A DNA stretch of 64,000 bases from an uncultured Candidatus Saccharibacteria bacterium (GTDB lineage Bacteria > Patescibacteriota > Saccharimonadia > Saccharimonadales > Saccharimonadaceae). The stretch spans positions 62,001 to 126,000 of the forward strand of contig CAMNAK010000002.1 of the NCBI GenBank assembly GCA_946530965.1. Direction: 5' to 3'. The number at the start of each line of letters is the position of its first letter. The stretch's first letter is position 1. The notes below the pieces were generated by a model. That model made no database searches, was not told where the DNA came from, and worked only from the letters and a program-made list of their open reading frames with translations. Made by a program: the position numbers and the translations under genes. This document shows, one piece after another, positions 3,553 to 14,206 of this stretch.

Positions 3553-5235
3553 TTACATCTTTTCTGGAATCTCTACGCCTAGAAGATCGAGTGCCTTGGC
3601 AAGTACATAATCTGCTTTCTCGACTAACCACAAACGCGCAGAACGTTCCTTATCATCCGCCTGGATAATTGGCGTCTTTTCGTAATAGCGGTTAAGAATC
3701 TGAGCAAGCTCAAAGCAGTAGCCAGCAATCTTGTGAAGTTCTAGCTTCTCTACGATACTCGAAACTAGTTCTGGGAATTTATTTAGACAAATCAGCAATT
3801 CCTTTTCTGCCTCGAAATCATAATCAGAAAAGTCAACTCGTACAAAATCTTTATTCTTTTCAAGAATCCTTCTTAGGCGCACATCGGCGTACTGGCAGAA
3901 TGGGCCAGAAAAACCAGTGAGAGCAAAAATCTTGTTTGGATCATAAAGAATGCCAGTCTTTCTATCGGCCACAAAGTCACTAAACTTAATTGCGCCAGTA
4001 GCAATCTTTCTAATATCTTCGTCGCTTAGCTCACTACCAGAAAAATTCTCGCGTACTCTTGCTTCTGCATCGTCAAGCATCGCCTCGAGTAGTACTACGC
4101 CCTTACGGCTAGACATCTTCTCGCGCTTACCTTCTTCGGTAACCTGATCAATCGTGCCAAACCATAGATGGAAGTTTTCCTGTGGCACGCCAAGCTTCTT
4201 GCCCATAGCAAATAATTGTTCAAAGTAAAACTTCTGTTCTGCACCAACACAATAGACAACCAAATCTGGCTTGTATTTTTCTGCCCTATAGAACATACAA
4301 GCAAGATCCGTCGTTGCATAAAGCGCCGTACCATTACTCTTTAGAACAAGCATTGGAACATCAATACCAAACTCATCCAAGCGGCAAATCACCGAACCAT
4401 CATCGTTCTGCTCGAACTTACCCTCTGCCAAATATTTTTGAACAAGCGCTTTGCCTGGCTCTGCATAAAAACTTTCACCAAGCTCCAAATCGGTACTGAT
4501 AGCCATGCGCTTCATGACATCATGAATATGATTCAAAGAAATCGTATTAAAACGCTCAGAATATTTAACAGCCTCAGGATCTTTCGCTTCTAGCTTCTTG
4601 AGCCATTCCTGAACTTCATCAGCAAGCTCGTGCTTCTCTTCGGCAGCTTCGTCCTTCAAAGCCTTCTTGGTATCAATATAAATCTGACCAAGATCATAAA
4701 TCGTAACATCATCGAGGCTCTTACCACTTCTTAGGAAACCAACAACCCAAACACCAAAAGGCGTACCGGTATCGCCAAGATGGTTATCCGTTACGACTTT
4801 CCAGCCATTAGCTTCGAGCAGCTTCTTTGTTGCCCAACCCTGAGTACCCGGGCGCAAGTGGCCAACCGAATAAGGTTTTGCCATGTTCGTGCTTGGGAAT
4901 TCTACGATAGCAGTCTTTCCCTTACCACTTTCATTGCAGCCATAATTCTCATTAAATTCGTTCGCAAGTTTCTCTTGTAGCTTCTTTGAAGAGATTTCTA
5001 CATTAATAAAGCCAGGGCCAGCCACGGTGAAAGTGTAGTCGTCGCCAAGCTTTGCAATAATTTCCTCGGCGATTTGACGCGGATTTTTCTGAGCACGCTT
5101 AGCAATACGCATTGCTACGTTCGTGGAATAATCACCTGCAATATCCGCAGGAACCTCTGAAAACTCAACGGCAGTTTCGTCGATATCATACAGAGATTTA
5201 ATTGCTTCTGTAATCTGCGTCTTTAGTTTATCCAT
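3553..5235 (-). CDS. argS: Arginyl-tRNA synthetase
   Basis: FPSTNMAKPYSVGHLRPG, KMSSRKGVVLL, long class I synthetase ORF with DALR-type C-terminus. Confidence 0.95.
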   Translation of the reverse strand: MDKLKTQITEAIKSLYDIDETAVEFSEVPADIAGDYSTNVAMRIAKRAQKNPRQIAEEIIAKLGDDYTFTVAGPGFINVEISSKKLQEKLANEFNENYGCNESGKGKTAIVEFPSTNMAKPYSVGHLRPGTQGWATKKLLEANGWKVVTDNHLGDTGTPFGVWVVGFLRSGKSLDDVTIYDLGQIYIDTKKALKDEAAEEKHELADEVQEWLKKLEAKDPEAVKYSERFNTISLNHIHDVMKRMAISTDLELGESFYAEPGKALVQKYLAEGKFEQNDDGSVICRLDEFGIDVPMLVLKSNGTALYATTDLACMFYRAEKYKPDLVVYCVGAEQKFYFEQLFAMGKKLGVPQENFHLWFGTIDQVTEEGKREKMSSRKGVVLLEAMLDDAEARVRENFSGSELSDEDIRKIATGAIKFSDFVADRKTGILYDPNKIFALTGFSGPFCQYADVRLRRILEKNKDFVRVDFSDYDFEAEKELLICLNKFPELVSSIVEKLELHKIAGYCFELAQILNRYYEKTPIIQADDKERSARLWLVEKADYVLAKALDLLGVEIPEKM

Positions 5236-5275: not shown

Positions 5276-5304
5276 TTGCAAAATTATCAAACTTATGATA
5301 TAAA
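5276..5304 (+). promoter_or_regulatory. Promoter of candidate RNA1 (TTGCAA-17-TATAAA)
   Basis: TTGCAA 5276-5281, 17-nt spacer, TATAAA 5299-5304. Confidence 0.6.
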
Positions 5305-5310
5305 TATATT

Positions 5311-5429
5311 GTCGCCTGTTCACGGGTGTCTACATTTCTAGACACTAGGCGACGTTGTCTCCTTTCTTTTGTTCTAGACATGCTCTTTTGTTTTTGTTTT
5401 GGGACGGCAGATCTGCCGTCCATTTTTTA
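5311..5429 (+). ncRNA. Candidate small RNA 1 (about 118 nt)
   Basis: Own promoter; 5' stem-loop tcgcct...tgtcta...tagaca...aggcga; CU-rich single-stranded middle; terminator ggacggcagatctgccgtcc + T6. Confidence 0.6.
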
Positions 5430-5443
5430 TCTCCTGCTTCGTC

Positions 5444-5472
5444 TTGCAATAATCTTATTTTTCTGATATAAT
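5444..5472 (+). promoter_or_regulatory. Promoter of candidate RNA2 (TTGCAA-17-TATAAT)
   Basis: TTGCAA 5444-5449, 17-nt spacer, TATAAT 5467-5472. Confidence 0.65.
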
Positions 5473-5478
5473 ATAGCG

Positions 5479-5659
5479 AACGTTTGCACGGTTACCCATT
5501 ACCACGCAAACGAATTTGTTCCTTTGCCATTGGGAACATATGCGGCGGGTCCCCCGCCATTCTCCAATCATTGTTGCCTGAGGCGACTTCTCTCTTCCGC
5601 CTCAGGCGGCAACGTTCTACTATCTATCGGGCAGCCCAAACGGACTGCCCACTTTTTTA
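5479..5659 (+). ncRNA. Candidate structured RNA 2 (about 180 nt, 4 hairpins plus terminator)
   Basis: cgtttgc/gcaaacg; gttcc/ggaac; ggcggg/cccgcc; gttgcctgaggcg/cgcctcaggcggcaac; terminator gggcag..ctgccc + T6. Confidence 0.65.
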
Positions 5660-5665
5660 CCCAAC

Positions 5666-5697
5666 AAAATACCGCCCAGATAGGCGGTATTTATTAG
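5666..5697. terminator. pyrG-side terminator
   Basis: aaataccgcccagataggcggtattt hairpin. Confidence 0.7.
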
Positions 5698-5699
5698 TC

Positions 5700-7292
5700 T
5701 TATTTCTTTGCAGCTTTAATCAAACCTTCGAATAGCGGATGAGCGCGATATGGCCTGCTTCTATATTCTGGATGACCTTGAGTTGCTACAAAGTAATCGC
5801 ATTTTGGAGCTTCAATAAACTCTACCAAAGAACCGTCTGGGCTTGTACCGGAAATCTTCAAACCACCTTTTTCAATCTCCTTAGTGAAAGCCTGATTCAC
5901 TTCATAACGGTGGCGATGACGTTCTACGACATCAGTTGCACCATAGATCTCTGCCATCTTTGAGCCCTTAACAAGCTTAGCAGGATAGTTGCCTAGGCGC
6001 ATTGTACCACCAGTACTTTCCTTGCCCTCTTGGCCTTCCATAATATATACAACATTTTCGCCTTCTTCGGCGCCGAACTCTTCAGAATTTGCCTTCTTGA
6101 TACCACCAATACGGGCAGCCGCAATGACAGCACACTGCATGCCAAGGCAAAGACCAAGATATGGCTTGTTATTCTTCAAACAATATGTAGCTGCAGCAAT
6201 CTTGCCCTCTACGCCACGAACACCAAAACCACCAGGAACAACAATACCATCGACAGCTTCAAAGTCGGATTCTTTTGCTTCTTCAGCATTAATCCAAACC
6301 GTCTTTAGCCTTACGCCAACCTTCCAAGCAGCGGCCTTTAGAGCCTCAGTAACAGATAGATAAGTATCGGTATTGTCTACATACTTTGCAACAAGACCAA
6401 TCTTTACCTCTTCTTTTGGATCGGATTCAATAGCCGCGACGAGCTTTTCCCACTTGCTCATATCCGGCTCGCCATGATCGATAAAGCGTTCTAGTGGAGC
6501 AAGCACGCCACCACGAACAGCATTTAGAGGAACTTCGTAAACGCTCTTTGCGTCTGGCATTAGAACTACTGCATCTTCGCTAACACCGCAGAAAGTAGCT
6601 AGCTTTGCTGCGATATGTGGAGCATCAGGCGTCTCACTAACATCCATACGAGCAACTACCATATCCGGCACAATACCGAATTCGCGAAGATCGCGAAGCG
6701 AATTCTGAGCTGGCTTTGTCTTAAACTCCTGAGAAGTTGCAAGCCAAGGCACAAAACAAACATGAACATAGAGGCAATTCTCGCGGCCGACCTTTGTCGA
6801 AAATTCACGGATAGCTTCAATAAAATGCAAACCCTCGATATCGCCAACGGTGCCGCCGATCTCTACGATATGAACATCAGAATCAAAATGCTCTGTGTTA
6901 TCAATGAAAGTCTTCTGAATCAAGCTAGTGACATGAGGAACAAGCTGAACGGTTTTGCCGCCAAATTTACCAGAACGCTCAGCATCAATAAGAGTTTTGT
7001 AAAGCTTACCGGAGGTCCAGATAGAATCACCGGTCATTTCTTCGTCTAGGAAGCGTTCATAGTGGCCAAGATCCAAATCCGTCTCAGCACCATCCTGCGT
7101 AACGTAGCATTCGCCATGCTCACGTGGGTTAAGAAGACCTGCATCAACGTTAAAATAAGGATCACATTTCTGCATCGACACCTTAAGACCCTTGGCCTTT
7201 AAAATAGCGCCGATACTTGCGGCCATGATGCCTTTACCGACGCCTGAGATAACTCCACCAGTTACAAAGATATACTTAGTTTTGTTTTTCAT
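5700..7292 (-). CDS. pyrG: CTP synthase (start reassigned to MKNKTKYIFVTGG)
   Basis: KYIFVTGGVISGVGKGI, GTVGDIEG, YLGLCLGMQ glutaminase motif; GGAGG upstream of ATG at 7292. Confidence 0.95.
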   Translation of the reverse strand: MKNKTKYIFVTGGVISGVGKGIMAASIGAILKAKGLKVSMQKCDPYFNVDAGLLNPREHGECYVTQDGAETDLDLGHYERFLDEEMTGDSIWTSGKLYKTLIDAERSGKFGGKTVQLVPHVTSLIQKTFIDNTEHFDSDVHIVEIGGTVGDIEGLHFIEAIREFSTKVGRENCLYVHVCFVPWLATSQEFKTKPAQNSLRDLREFGIVPDMVVARMDVSETPDAPHIAAKLATFCGVSEDAVVLMPDAKSVYEVPLNAVRGGVLAPLERFIDHGEPDMSKWEKLVAAIESDPKEEVKIGLVAKYVDNTDTYLSVTEALKAAAWKVGVRLKTVWINAEEAKESDFEAVDGIVVPGGFGVRGVEGKIAAATYCLKNNKPYLGLCLGMQCAVIAAARIGGIKKANSEEFGAEEGENVVYIMEGQEGKESTGGTMRLGNYPAKLVKGSKMAEIYGATDVVERHRHRYEVNQAFTKEIEKGGLKISGTSPDGSLVEFIEAPKCDYFVATQGHPEYRSRPYRAHPLFEGLIKAAKK

Positions 7293-7412
7293 GGCGCCCT
7301 CTTTTCCTCCTCGATGCACTGAAATTTTAATCAATAATACTCTTTAAGGATAAAGCATTTTATCTATAAGCGCAAATCAAAAAGACGATTTTATCATGCT
7401 AAAATGAACTTA

Positions 7413-8482: not shown

Positions 8483-11356
8483 TTAGCGTTCGCCTAAAGC
8501 CCTTTTTGCAATTACGCATCCGCTAAGAGAGCCAATGAAGACAATTACGCAAATCGCAATCTTGTCGCTGGTATCTACTGGCTTTTCTTCCTTGGCGACA
8601 CGATGATTAATAATCAAATTTGCACCAGCAAATGGCTCACTTTGTTCTTCGGTGGTAGCCGGGACATAGTCTTCTTTATTTAATGCAAAAGTATTAGGCC
8701 TATTCATATCCCATGTAGGCTCCGCAGTAAAGATATCATCCCTCGTGACTGGCTCATATGTAAGATGACCAAAAGTATCCTCGTAAGAACTACTATCTAA
8801 CTCACTTTCGCTATAATTCGTAGTCAACGAATCTCTACCGCCCCTAACTACCGAGCCGGTACATCTAGCAAGCGGAGAGATTAGAATCTTATAATTACTA
8901 GATTCCGCACTGAGCCTTGTAATATTGCTATCCGCTAAGCCAAAATATCTCATATAGACCGTTCCAGATTCTTCATCGGTAACATCTGCAACTACACCCA
9001 AAAAGCCATCATCTGAACCACCTAACAATTCACAATTAAATTCCAGAATATCGATGTCGTCTTCGTCCTCTAATGTCGCATAACTCGTCTCGTATCCAGT
9101 AAGCGTATCCTCAACAACTACATATTCGGCAACCGAACCATCAGAATTAAGAGACGGCAATTCTTCAAAGACTCCGCGCCAAATATTAGCATCGTTTTCG
9201 TCGGCATTATCCGCCGTTAAGGTTACTTCCCTCACAGCCTTACTCATATCGCTCTGCTCGTATAGTTTGAAGCTAACGCTCTCTGGACGCTCAGATTCAA
9301 ATCCAGCATCATCCCATTGTTTCTTGAATGAATAATCATTCTTAGCACCAGTGTATCTATTAGCCACTATTACGGAATCACTGACAATTGGGATAACAGA
9401 AGGCGTCGACGAATCATCCATCTGGTAAGTCGTAGCGTAGTTAACCAAACTCTCCTCAACAACCTTATACGAATTGACATAGCCATCAGCGTCATAGCGA
9501 TTCATGACTCTGAAGGCACCTTCCCAGTCGCCGAGCGAATTCACATCCGCCTGACTGAGCGTAATCTCATCCACCTTCTCGTTGTTACGTACATTATATA
9601 GTTCAAATTTGATCGTTTCTGGTCGGAAGTTCTCCATGCCCGAGTCATCCCAGATCTTTCTAACCTTAACCAAATCAGGCTCGTCAGCAATTACAATTGA
9701 AGGATCGCAAGAAAGCTCGCCATCTTCAGAAACACTAAATTGCACTGGCTCCGCCAATTTGTAGCCCGCAGGAGGTTCAAGCTCTACGATTTCATAGTCA
9801 TGGCCATATGGTAAATCGCTAAAATGTTTTGTTTCGTCAGTCGTATCCCAAGAATACATAATCGAGCCATCCATCTTCAAACCAAGTGTCGCGCCAGACA
9901 ACGGCTCGCCATTTTCATCGACCTTCCGGATATCAATCGACGCTTTCTTGCGATTAACGAATTCCATATTTTCGACACCCAAAGTTACATAAGTGCCGCA
10001 ATATTCTTTATTGTCTTCATATCGATTGTTAACAACCGTCTCGCCCGTGTTAATATTAAGCATCGTCCCATCCTCGACAAAGAAATCAGTCCTATGACCA
10101 GTCGGAGTAACACAAAGCTTTAATACCCTTAGGTTCGTCTCGCCGAACCTAAGATTAAGCTCTTCGCTATATGGATCGCCAAGATTTGTTATATCGAGAT
10201 AGTCGCCTTTTTCAAACCGCCCCAAAATGCCACCCGTGTAATACCCGTTTTTGCTGCCATTCGCAGTAGGGACATCGCTTCTACGCCAACTTGAAAAATC
10301 CGCCCTCTTCAAAGGATTCACATAAGAGGAAGACCTATTAAAAAACTGATCTACACTAGTGAGATTCTGAGTATTAAGACGAGAAAAATCAAAATATTCG
10401 ACACCAGAAGCATCAAACATGTATCGAGCATCTTCAAGCAAAGGAGTATCAGACACGCTCCAAATCATCGTTCTGAGCTTCGGCGTCTCAAAGAACATAT
10501 AACTCATATCAGTTACATTGCTCAAATCGAAACTGCTAACATTCAAAGTCGTCACTTCGTTTAAGTAGTAACCAAACATTCCGTACATATTCGTCATTCG
10601 AGAAGTATCAAGTTTCCTTACGTCAAAACTACGACAGTTACGAAAACTTCCAAAATCAATTCCATTCGGTCTTACTGGATCCTTAAACCTAACCGAAGTA
10701 ACATTGTCATAATACTGATCCCAAACTTCATCTCCAGATTCCGGAACAATCATATAATGCCTATAAGACCTATAGGACGCATCGCCGTCTATATACTCAA
10801 AAGAATTATTCTCATACGCTCCATCCTCAGCACGGAAGAAAGTCAACGACCCATCACGCGAATCCCAAACCGAATACGCCGTCCCCCACAATTCGTCTTC
10901 ACTCGCATGATAAGTAGGATATTCAAATTCCTCATAACTTATCTCTTCAGAAGTCGGCTTCGCATAAGTTACAATCTCTGCTTCGCCTTCATTTATCTCA
11001 AGCACAACATAGCCAACATTATTATCGTAAACAATCGTATCGTCATCCCCTTGAACCTCAGTTACTTCATAGACGATATACTTATCACCAATAATGTCTT
11101 CGTCAGAATAAGGGACATTCTCAAAAACAATCTTACCATCGGCACGATTTGTCGTTGTTGCCAAAACAGTATCGGAACCAGATTTACGCAGCTCAAAAGT
11201 AAACTCCCCGGCCGTAGCGCTAGCACCCTTCATGTCGAGGTGACCTTCAATATTAGTTGTACCAGAAATCGCACTAGCCGTTCCGCTAGCTGCGCAAATT
11301 CCTAGTCCTAAAGCTACCGCTGCGCATACCAAGCGCTTCAGCCTTAAAAGCCTCAT
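8483..11356 (-). CDS. Large surface protein A (signal peptide, pilin-type isopeptide domain, BspA/DUF285-like repeats, SpaA/Cna-B domains, C-terminal sorting-like signal)
   Basis: GEFTFELRKSGSDTVLATTTNRADGKIVFENVPYSDED; LDTSRMTNMYGMF / SNVTDMSYMF repeats; ASIDIRKVDENGEPLSGATLGL; two VRKIWDD-like Cna-B units; PVDTSDKIAICVIVFIGSLSG...KRALGER. Confidence 0.85.
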   Translation of the reverse strand: MRLLRLKRLVCAAVALGLGICAASGTASAISGTTNIEGHLDMKGASATAGEFTFELRKSGSDTVLATTTNRADGKIVFENVPYSDEDIIGDKYIVYEVTEVQGDDDTIVYDNNVGYVVLEINEGEAEIVTYAKPTSEEISYEEFEYPTYHASEDELWGTAYSVWDSRDGSLTFFRAEDGAYENNSFEYIDGDASYRSYRHYMIVPESGDEVWDQYYDNVTSVRFKDPVRPNGIDFGSFRNCRSFDVRKLDTSRMTNMYGMFGYYLNEVTTLNVSSFDLSNVTDMSYMFFETPKLRTMIWSVSDTPLLEDARYMFDASGVEYFDFSRLNTQNLTSVDQFFNRSSSYVNPLKRADFSSWRRSDVPTANGSKNGYYTGGILGRFEKGDYLDITNLGDPYSEELNLRFGETNLRVLKLCVTPTGHRTDFFVEDGTMLNINTGETVVNNRYEDNKEYCGTYVTLGVENMEFVNRKKASIDIRKVDENGEPLSGATLGLKMDGSIMYSWDTTDETKHFSDLPYGHDYEIVELEPPAGYKLAEPVQFSVSEDGELSCDPSIVIADEPDLVKVRKIWDDSGMENFRPETIKFELYNVRNNEKVDEITLSQADVNSLGDWEGAFRVMNRYDADGYVNSYKVVEESLVNYATTYQMDDSSTPSVIPIVSDSVIVANRYTGAKNDYSFKKQWDDAGFESERPESVSFKLYEQSDMSKAVREVTLTADNADENDANIWRGVFEELPSLNSDGSVAEYVVVEDTLTGYETSYATLEDEDDIDILEFNCELLGGSDDGFLGVVADVTDEESGTVYMRYFGLADSNITRLSAESSNYKILISPLARCTGSVVRGGRDSLTTNYSESELDSSSYEDTFGHLTYEPVTRDDIFTAEPTWDMNRPNTFALNKEDYVPATTEEQSEPFAGANLIINHRVAKEEKPVDTSDKIAICVIVFIGSLSGCVIAKRALGER

Positions 11357-11671: not shown

Positions 11672-14206
11672 CTAGCGTTTCTTTGTTGCGCTAAACGCAA
11701 ATGCACCGCCAAGCGACACCGCAAAAGTAATCGCACAAATCACAATCTTGTCGCGCGTATCTGGAGATTCCGTCTCTTCTGGCGTAATCTCAGATTCTTC
11801 TTCCTCAGGAATAACAGCGTTTGTTATTATGGTTGCCCCCACAAACGGCGCATCTTCTTCGTCAACGCCATCGGCGGCATAGCTAGTTTCGTAACCATCT
11901 ATCGCAGTTTCAACAATTACATATCGAATCGTTTCACCCGCATTATCCTTCTCTAGCAATCCTTCAAACTTGCCATGCCATGCATTATCGCCATCACCAT
12001 CATCCACTACCTGGATGCTTGCAATCGCATTTTCCATGTCACCACTTTCGAATATACTCACCTCGATAGATCCCGGTCTTTGCGACTCATATCCTTCATC
12101 GAGCCACTCTTTCGTAAACTCATAATCAATCAAAGAACCGTTGAATTCATTTTTGACCGTAATCCTATCACCGGCAATCGGATCCGCACTTCCGCCTTCC
12201 CTACCGTCCAACTGATAAACCGGCGAATAGTTAACAAAATCGTCTTTCTCGATTACTACAAGGTTATGATTACGATCATCCAAGCCATACTCACTATAAT
12301 CCTTAAACTCGCCAACCCAAGCACCATCCGCATTCGCATCGTCAGCCGTCACGGTAATCTCATCAATCGTTTCATCAGCATCAGCATCAAACAGCTCAAA
12401 AGTAACGCTCTCTGGACGATATTGTTCTTTGCCTTCATCGTCCCATACTTTCTTAACTCTCACGGCATTCAGCTCATCCTCAATTTCTATAGAAGAAATC
12501 TCTTCGTCATTGCTAGTCACCACACCATCAGCTGACACATTAAAGCTTACCGGTGACGCCACTCTATAACCTTCCGGTGCTTCGTACTCAATAATTTCAT
12601 AATCATGACCAAAAGCTAAATTGCTGAAAAATACCGCATCATCACCTGTCTCCCATGAATAAATCACCGATCCATCCATCTTTAGCGCCATTTCTGCGCC
12701 CGCCAAAGCCTCGCCATCCTCATTTACCTTCTTAACCTCAAGCTGCGCTTTTTTCTGATTCACGAAGGTCATTTCGGTATCACTCATTGTCGCATAAGTA
12801 CCACAAAGGCCCTCGGTAATATAGCCGTAATTGCTTTGCGTCACCACGCCAGTCATTACATTGATCATCGGTCTATGCGCAATAAGCGGAGATGGGTAGC
12901 TAGCGCCGTGCTCAATACATAGCTTTACGACTTTTACCCCGTAAAGACTCGAAAACTCTGCACTATAAACTGCACCCAAATTGGTAATATCTAGGAAATC
13001 GCCATCATATCTATAGAACATATTCGATGTTCCATAAACCTTTTGAACACGGCCATTAACATACTCGCCATTCCGCTTCCAGTTCGACATATCAATCCGC
13101 CTCATAGCTACTGGTACTTGCGAGCTCGTGCTAAACATATAATCAGCATACTCAAGACTATCAGTCTCAAATTTAGAAAAATCAAAATACTCTAATCTCG
13201 TATTCCTCATCATATCGGCCATATCGGTCACCTCCGTGGTATCTGGATCACCCCAAATAACTCTTTCCAAATTAACATCACCCTCAAACATACCTTCCAT
13301 TTTCGTCACATTTGACGTGTCGAAATTGCTAATATTTATTGACTTAAAAGCGCCTTGATTTCGGTTGTATTTAAACATATCGCGCATGGTTGTCAGCCTT
13401 GATGTATCTAGCTTGCGCAAATCATAGCTCTCACAATTCTCGAACCCAGAAAAACCAATATACTCCGGCCTCACCGCATCTTTAAAACGCACCGATTTGA
13501 CCTTTGAGCTTTCAGCATAATACGGCGTACTGCCGTTATTGTAGTTGAAGCCAGAGTTCCCAGTCTCCTGCACAACGGTATAGTACAAATACCAACCATC
13601 GTTATAAACATATTTTCTATCCTCATAAGCGCCCTCTTCATCGCGGAAAAACGTTAACGAACCATCGCGAGAATCAAAAACCGAATAAGCTACGCCTTGT
13701 AAATCCTCATCAGTAGCATGAAAAACATTATATTCTAGACCATCATAGCGAATTTCCATTGAAACCGGCTTCGCATAAGTAATAGTTATCTCTTCAGCAT
13801 CTGGCGAACCACCTTCCTCGAATTGCAAAACAGCATAACCGACATTACTATCATAAATAATCGTATCGTCATCGCCCGGAACCTCAGTGACCTCGTAAAT
13901 AATATACTTTTCATTCAAGATATCGGCATCAGAATACGGCACATCCTTAAAAACAATATTGCCGTCAGCGTCATTAGTAGTAGTCATAATGACAGTATCA
14001 GAACCAGGCTTACGCAACTCAAAACTAAACTCGCCTTCAGATATCTCGCTAGCGCCATTTACAACTTTCTGCCCAGTAATATCTACAGTGCCAGAAATCG
14101 CATAACTTGCACCGCAAGCCAACAAAACATTCACTGTTGCCGCCAATACTACAGCCAAAATGCGCTTTGAGCTAAAAAACATTTTTATCTCCCTTTTTTG
14201 TTTCAA
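11672..14206 (-). CDS. Large surface protein B, paralog of protein A
   Basis: Same architecture (isopeptide pilin domain, DUF285-like repeats, SpaA, Cna-B); C-term SPDTRDKIVICAITFAVSLGGAFAFSATKKR. Confidence 0.85.
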   Translation of the reverse strand: MKQKREIKMFFSSKRILAVVLAATVNVLLACGASYAISGTVDITGQKVVNGASEISEGEFSFELRKPGSDTVIMTTTNDADGNIVFKDVPYSDADILNEKYIIYEVTEVPGDDDTIIYDSNVGYAVLQFEEGGSPDAEEITITYAKPVSMEIRYDGLEYNVFHATDEDLQGVAYSVFDSRDGSLTFFRDEEGAYEDRKYVYNDGWYLYYTVVQETGNSGFNYNNGSTPYYAESSKVKSVRFKDAVRPEYIGFSGFENCESYDLRKLDTSRLTTMRDMFKYNRNQGAFKSINISNFDTSNVTKMEGMFEGDVNLERVIWGDPDTTEVTDMADMMRNTRLEYFDFSKFETDSLEYADYMFSTSSQVPVAMRRIDMSNWKRNGEYVNGRVQKVYGTSNMFYRYDGDFLDITNLGAVYSAEFSSLYGVKVVKLCIEHGASYPSPLIAHRPMINVMTGVVTQSNYGYITEGLCGTYATMSDTEMTFVNQKKAQLEVKKVNEDGEALAGAEMALKMDGSVIYSWETGDDAVFFSNLAFGHDYEIIEYEAPEGYRVASPVSFNVSADGVVTSNDEEISSIEIEDELNAVRVKKVWDDEGKEQYRPESVTFELFDADADETIDEITVTADDANADGAWVGEFKDYSEYGLDDRNHNLVVIEKDDFVNYSPVYQLDGREGGSADPIAGDRITVKNEFNGSLIDYEFTKEWLDEGYESQRPGSIEVSIFESGDMENAIASIQVVDDGDGDNAWHGKFEGLLEKDNAGETIRYVIVETAIDGYETSYAADGVDEEDAPFVGATIITNAVIPEEEESEITPEETESPDTRDKIVICAITFAVSLGGAFAFSATKKR

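Follow-up and report, generated by a model that had tools for sequence, protein, structure and literature searches.

In low-GC Gram-positive bacteria, the small RNAs (sRNAs) of the RsaE/RoxS, FsrA, and IsrR types are antisense regulators that use C-rich loops. CsrB and RsmZ are protein sponges, characterized by repeated GGA motifs in their hairpin loops. A search of the literature, mostly of papers outside subscription, found none on native small RNAs in Saccharibacteria or Patescibacteria. IsrR is discussed in PMC9410917.

The gene considered here, RNA2, lies between argS and pyrG in a 64,000-nucleotide stretch of an uncultured Candidatus Saccharibacteria genome (contig CAMNAK010000002.1, positions 62,001 to 126,000; "the window"). 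Like the RsaE/RoxS, FsrA, and IsrR types, RNA2 stands alone in an intergenic region with its own promoter and terminator, and it has a pyrimidine-rich motif, predicted to be unpaired, that might pair with a Shine-Dalgarno sequence and be used without Hfq. It differs from them in carrying CUCC instead of UCCC runs and in being confined to three species, and neither Rfam models of RsaE/FsrA-like families nor sequence comparison gave a match. With CsrB/RsmZ, RNA2 shares several consecutive hairpins in a short intergenic RNA, but it lacks repeated GGA in the hairpin loops, and G makes up 3% of its unpaired positions (shuffles: 6.6 ± 1.2%, with none of 100 reaching so low a value). Our leading interpretation, held tentatively and at somewhat below even chances, is that RNA2 is a stand-alone sRNA gene of a three-species lineage, most likely acting by Hfq-independent antisense pairing.

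RNA2 is a predicted transcription unit with a stable fold

The RNA2 unit spans window positions 5444 to 5658 on the plus strand, from promoter through terminator (Table 1). An earlier note on this DNA had proposed a promoter here, and its elements were recovered: TTGCAA (5444-5449) and TATAAT (5467-5472) are separated by 17 nt, with a TG just upstream of the latter forming an extended -10. The promoter is of the sigma-70 type and matches the consensus at 10 of 12 positions. The transcript of about 180 nt described in that note, with four hairpins followed by an intrinsic terminator, was likewise borne out by folding. The minimum free energy was -75.2 kcal/mol (5477-5660), against -44.3 ± 3.7 kcal/mol for dinucleotide shuffles (z = -8.4; 0 of 200 as stable), and the terminator stem was paired at a probability of 0.996. 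This hairpin is missed by a simple terminator scan because of internal mismatches in its stem. As H1 to H4 are enclosed by the P1 helix, the four hairpins may form a single multi-branched domain. The CUCC of the linker between H3 and H4 was unpaired at a probability of 0.95, with 8 of 60 shuffles equally high, so that for RNA2 taken by itself this accessibility is not significant.

Table 1. Features of the RNA2 locus and its surroundings (window coordinates).
Feature	Position	Strand	Description
argS	3553..5235	-	Arginyl-tRNA synthetase (Pfam); left border of the slot
RNA1 gene	5276..5430	+	Promoter 5276-5304, TTGCAA-17-TATAAA; hairpins; terminator 5402-5427
RNA2 promoter	5444..5472	+	TGATATAAT; TTGCAA-17-TATAAT, extended -10; both hexamers invariant in three species
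RNA2 transcript	5478..5658	+	About 180 nt; ends predicted from promoter and terminator; fold z, divergence
RNA2 P1	5478..5481 with 5614..5617	+	Closing helix, 4 bp GAAC/GUUC; pair probability 0.77-0.83; invariant
RNA2 H1	5482..5511	+	Loop UACCCAUU; fold; single G-C to G-U change in G011
RNA2 H2	5517..5538	+	Loop UUGCCAUU; fold; invariant
RNA2 H3	5544..5558	+	Basal 5 bp invariant; variable apex: G-C to A-U (both sides) in G035, A-C mismatch in G011
RNA2 linker	5559..5570	+	AUUCUCCAAUCA; single-stranded, anti-Shine-Dalgarno-like; candidate pairing region
RNA2 H4	5571..5612	+	Loop ACUUCUCUCUUC; 15 bp including two U-G pairs; invariant
RNA2 terminator	5629..5658	+	Intrinsic; stem 5629-5650, then AC, T6 at 5653-5658
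Hairpin	5667..5692		AAATACCGCC/GGCGGTATTT; probably the pyrG terminator (sequence)
pyrG	5700..7334	-	CTP synthase (Pfam); right border of the slot
Slot protein genes in relatives			L041, L045, L046, L047, L054, L055, L058, L062, L090, L091, L097, L100

Further along the window, two large adjacent genes resembling those for surface proteins are encoded on the minus strand (8483-11356 and 11672-14206). The former contains Cna_B, SpaA, and DUF285 domains (Pfam), and the latter looks like its paralogue.

Constraint, strand, and coding status

In BLAST searches of 61 relatives and then of 45 genomes of the genus, the RNA2 region was found only in G035 and G011 besides the window genome, at 95-96% identity, and both copies occupy the same argS-pyrG gap. 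Among these three species, RNA2 diverges by 3.3-4.4%, while the fourfold-degenerate sites show 17-19% (pyrG) and 13-17% (argS), so that RNA2 changes 4 to 5 times more slowly than such sites in its neighbors. Ten positions vary, 7 of which fall within 5541-5560 (the H3 apex and its flanks). The remaining 163 nt contain 3 changes, against about 45 expected by arithmetic from the pyrG fourfold divergence (tree length about 0.275). Outside H3, invariance extends to loops and linkers no less than to stems. Pairing is kept (as G-C, A-U, or G-U) by all changes within stems (Table 1), except for the one A-C at a hairpin tip. A single double compensatory change among three sequences provides no statistical covariation, and a shuffle control on covariation was uninformative, as expected. 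The functional case, made from sequence, rests on constraint and fold and not on covariation.

The same pattern bears on the idea that RNA2 has a structural or protein-binding role, as either a multi-branched scaffold or a protein sponge in which the stems do the work. Nearly all stem pairs of H1, H2, H4, and P1 are invariant, and the closing helix would give a scaffold its single multi-branched domain. For a pure scaffold, however, the invariance of loops and linkers (H3 apart) would be needless, and a sponge of the CsrB/RsmZ kind would be expected to present GGA-type motifs, which the G-poor unpaired regions do not. We regard this explanation as rather unlikely.

The strand is indicated by several features that agree on plus: the promoter, the T run, the U-G pairs of two hairpins (H2 and H4), and the change to G-U within H1. 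The wobble pairs favor this strand because they become A-C mismatches when read on the opposite one.

RNA2 could also be a short coding gene, expressing either the ORF at 5484-5735, whose translation and conservation the earlier note had named as the evidence to look for against an RNA, or a shorter peptide. Its 83-amino-acid frame is open in all three species. However, it begins with TTG, lacks a Shine-Dalgarno sequence, overlaps the terminator, and continues into pyrG in antisense orientation. Most changes in the frame are non-synonymous (C to H, P to S or L, P to L, I to N, Y to C), whereas the changed codons of pyrG comprise 75 synonymous and 2 non-synonymous ones between the window genome and G035. 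Given its start and its mostly amino-acid-changing substitutions, we conclude that this ORF is not a gene; the RNA reading is favored, and a coding role is highly improbable. RNA2 has a predicted promoter and terminator of its own, a non-coding character, and purifying selection, all of them marks of independent bacterial intergenic sRNA genes. The candidate structured RNA of the earlier note stands, on constraint and fold, as a discrete gene: as far as its sequence tells, RNA2 is a bounded, strand-specific, constrained, non-coding small RNA gene.

Distribution and search for known RNA families

Covariance modeling on relatives, which the earlier note had suggested, placed RNA2 once per genome in 3 of the 45 genomes of the genus; the other 42 gave no hit. 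No further copy was detected among 295 genomes of the class with this model, which was built from the three RNA2 sequences and applied with strict filters that may miss remote relatives. Promoter-only matches in G004, G017, and G068 were rejected as homologs, being located in other contexts. Phages and plasmids showed no similarity to RNA2, or only a terminator-like 40 nt, and an exact 25-mer search of viral contigs gave no match.

The previous statement that RNA2 resembles no tmRNA, RNase P, SRP, or 6S RNA agrees with Rfam, in which no family matched the RNA2 region at the gathering threshold. With E-values up to 10, sub-threshold proteobacterial sRNAs and similar families appeared, all far below the gathering score. 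A highly diverged version of one of these universal RNAs would be another explanation. In its favor, the length of about 180 nt fits 6S RNA, for which the window genome yields no hit with the Rfam 6S model. Against this, 6S RNA would be expected genus-wide, whereas only three species carry RNA2, and its fold has no long bulged hairpin of the 6S type and no match to RF00013. RNA2 was also rejected as a tmRNA: it contains no tRNA-like domain with a tag ORF, and the tmRNA of the window genome is located elsewhere (C2:12187-12554). The narrow distribution largely refutes the universal-RNA explanation, to which we give hardly any weight. In the whole assembly G000, neither 16S nor 6S RNA was matched by Rfam models, despite a listed completeness of 99.4%.

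Contents of the argS-pyrG slot across relatives

The genes argS and pyrG are neighbors in 23 genomes. The slot between them is empty in 3 (G014, G022, and G031; gap of 31-47 nt), contains a protein gene in 12, and a predicted non-coding transcript in 8. Among the empty ones, G014 is the sister of the three RNA2 species. The 12 protein genes (Table 1) have about 134-318 codons, point away from argS, and are mostly preceded by a clear Shine-Dalgarno sequence. The products of L041, L058, and L062 are small and highly charged and seem related by eye; L041, the only slot protein compared with Pfam, had no match. A strong hairpin lies near the expected transcript start at several of these genes.

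The 8 transcripts without a convincing ORF fall into three unrelated sequences: those of the three window species, of G064/G068, and of G003/G015/G025. The G064/G068 transcripts (L061/L060) measure 344-371 nt (z of -5.6 and -6.8), and those of G003/G015/G025 about 220-260 nt (z of about -3.6 for the two tested). Conserved motifs were seen in both groups, namely AAUCACCACACA and ACUCCUUUC in G068 and G064, which had no Rfam match, and UAAGUYGAACUGCG with GGCAYCUCC in G015, G003, and G025 (L039, L043, and L098), where a search with L039 and L043 gave no Rfam match either. Both groups are like RNA2 in slot, direction, a similar promoter, structure, and a terminator of their own. Unlike RNA2, they are longer (220-370 nt), and they have no likeness to it in sequence beyond chance: none of ten comparisons was significant, the score with the G068 RNA being borderline (1 of 200 shuffles as good, within these ten comparisons). 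Accessible CUCC exceeded the RNA's own shuffle mean in 6 of 7 slot RNAs.

In the pyrG tree, RNA-bearing genomes are scattered, and the window species form one clade with G014 (empty) and G003/G015. Within that clade, one old RNA might conceivably have diverged past recognition and been lost in G014. RNA2 itself would have been either gained in the three-species lineage or retained only by it. A wider interpretation is that the gap serves the genus as a cargo slot, where small charged proteins and structured non-coding RNAs take each other's place between lineages behind a similarly placed promoter. We consider this unlikely, and the same low estimate applies jointly to its extension, in which RNA1/RNA2 would count as one RNA cargo among three or more that are unrelated and serve a fast-changing function, such as interaction with a host or competitor.

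The arrangement of the slot also raises the question of whether the RNA products matter at all. Two terminator-bounded transcripts could act in cis, insulating or interfering with the divergent argS and the convergent pyrG. RNA1 is indeed divergent from argS and RNA2 convergent on pyrG, and the spacing of 31-47 nt between pyrG and argS in the three relatives with empty slots is compatible with one operon. Transcription alone, however, does not call for some 160 internal nucleotides to be nearly invariant, and in relatives unrelated sequences fill the slot. An effect in cis therefore seems doubtful to us.

RNA1 and the question of co-regulation

RNA1 (about 5309-5430) is a smaller structured unit (fold z = -4.7) with its own promoter and terminator, found in the same three species only. 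Its tail region is rich in U, and the RNA contains UCUCCUUUCUUUUG, which resembles an anti-Shine-Dalgarno sequence. That both promoters have the same -35 hexamer and spacing, as reported earlier, is correct; the RNA1 promoter also carries the TG of an extended -10, and the window has no TTGCAA followed by a spaced -10 other than those of RNA1 and RNA2. The co-regulation deduced from this does not follow. The shared elements are core sigma-70 hexamers, and in relatives a TTGC-type -35 precedes the other RNAs of the slot and also some of its protein genes, so that they are no proof of a common regulator. They would rather reflect that the main sigma factor recognizes both promoters, and perhaps that the slot has a promoter type in common. 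Common regulation of the two RNAs is possible. Pairing between RNA1 and RNA2 was dismissed, the cofold being merely 1.9 kcal/mol below the separate parts.

Proposed mode of action and significance

Under the favored antisense reading, transcription of RNA2 would start at a sigma-70-type promoter of its own and run rightward to its own terminator. Its rigid hairpins would display short, nearly G-free strands (UACCCAUU, UUGCCAUU, AUUCUCCAAUCA, and ACUUCUCUCUUC), one or more of which, being rich in pyrimidines, could pair with mRNAs at purine-rich regions around their translation starts and lower the translation of these targets. Hfq was found neither in the window genome nor in 30 relatives, while 5 control genomes were positive; a mode of action free of Hfq would therefore be needed. 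When the RNA2 loops were compared with the start regions of 57 genes in the window, pairing did not exceed that of composition-shuffled loops. Also counting against the pairing step, RNA2 is lineage-specific and offers no target conservation to check, and a protein-binding role would account equally for the conserved stems.

RNA2 would provide a specific handle on post-transcriptional control in a lineage with small genomes and without Hfq. In addition, the alternation of RNA genes and small protein genes in the argS-pyrG slot makes a tractable example of how sRNA genes may originate or be swapped.
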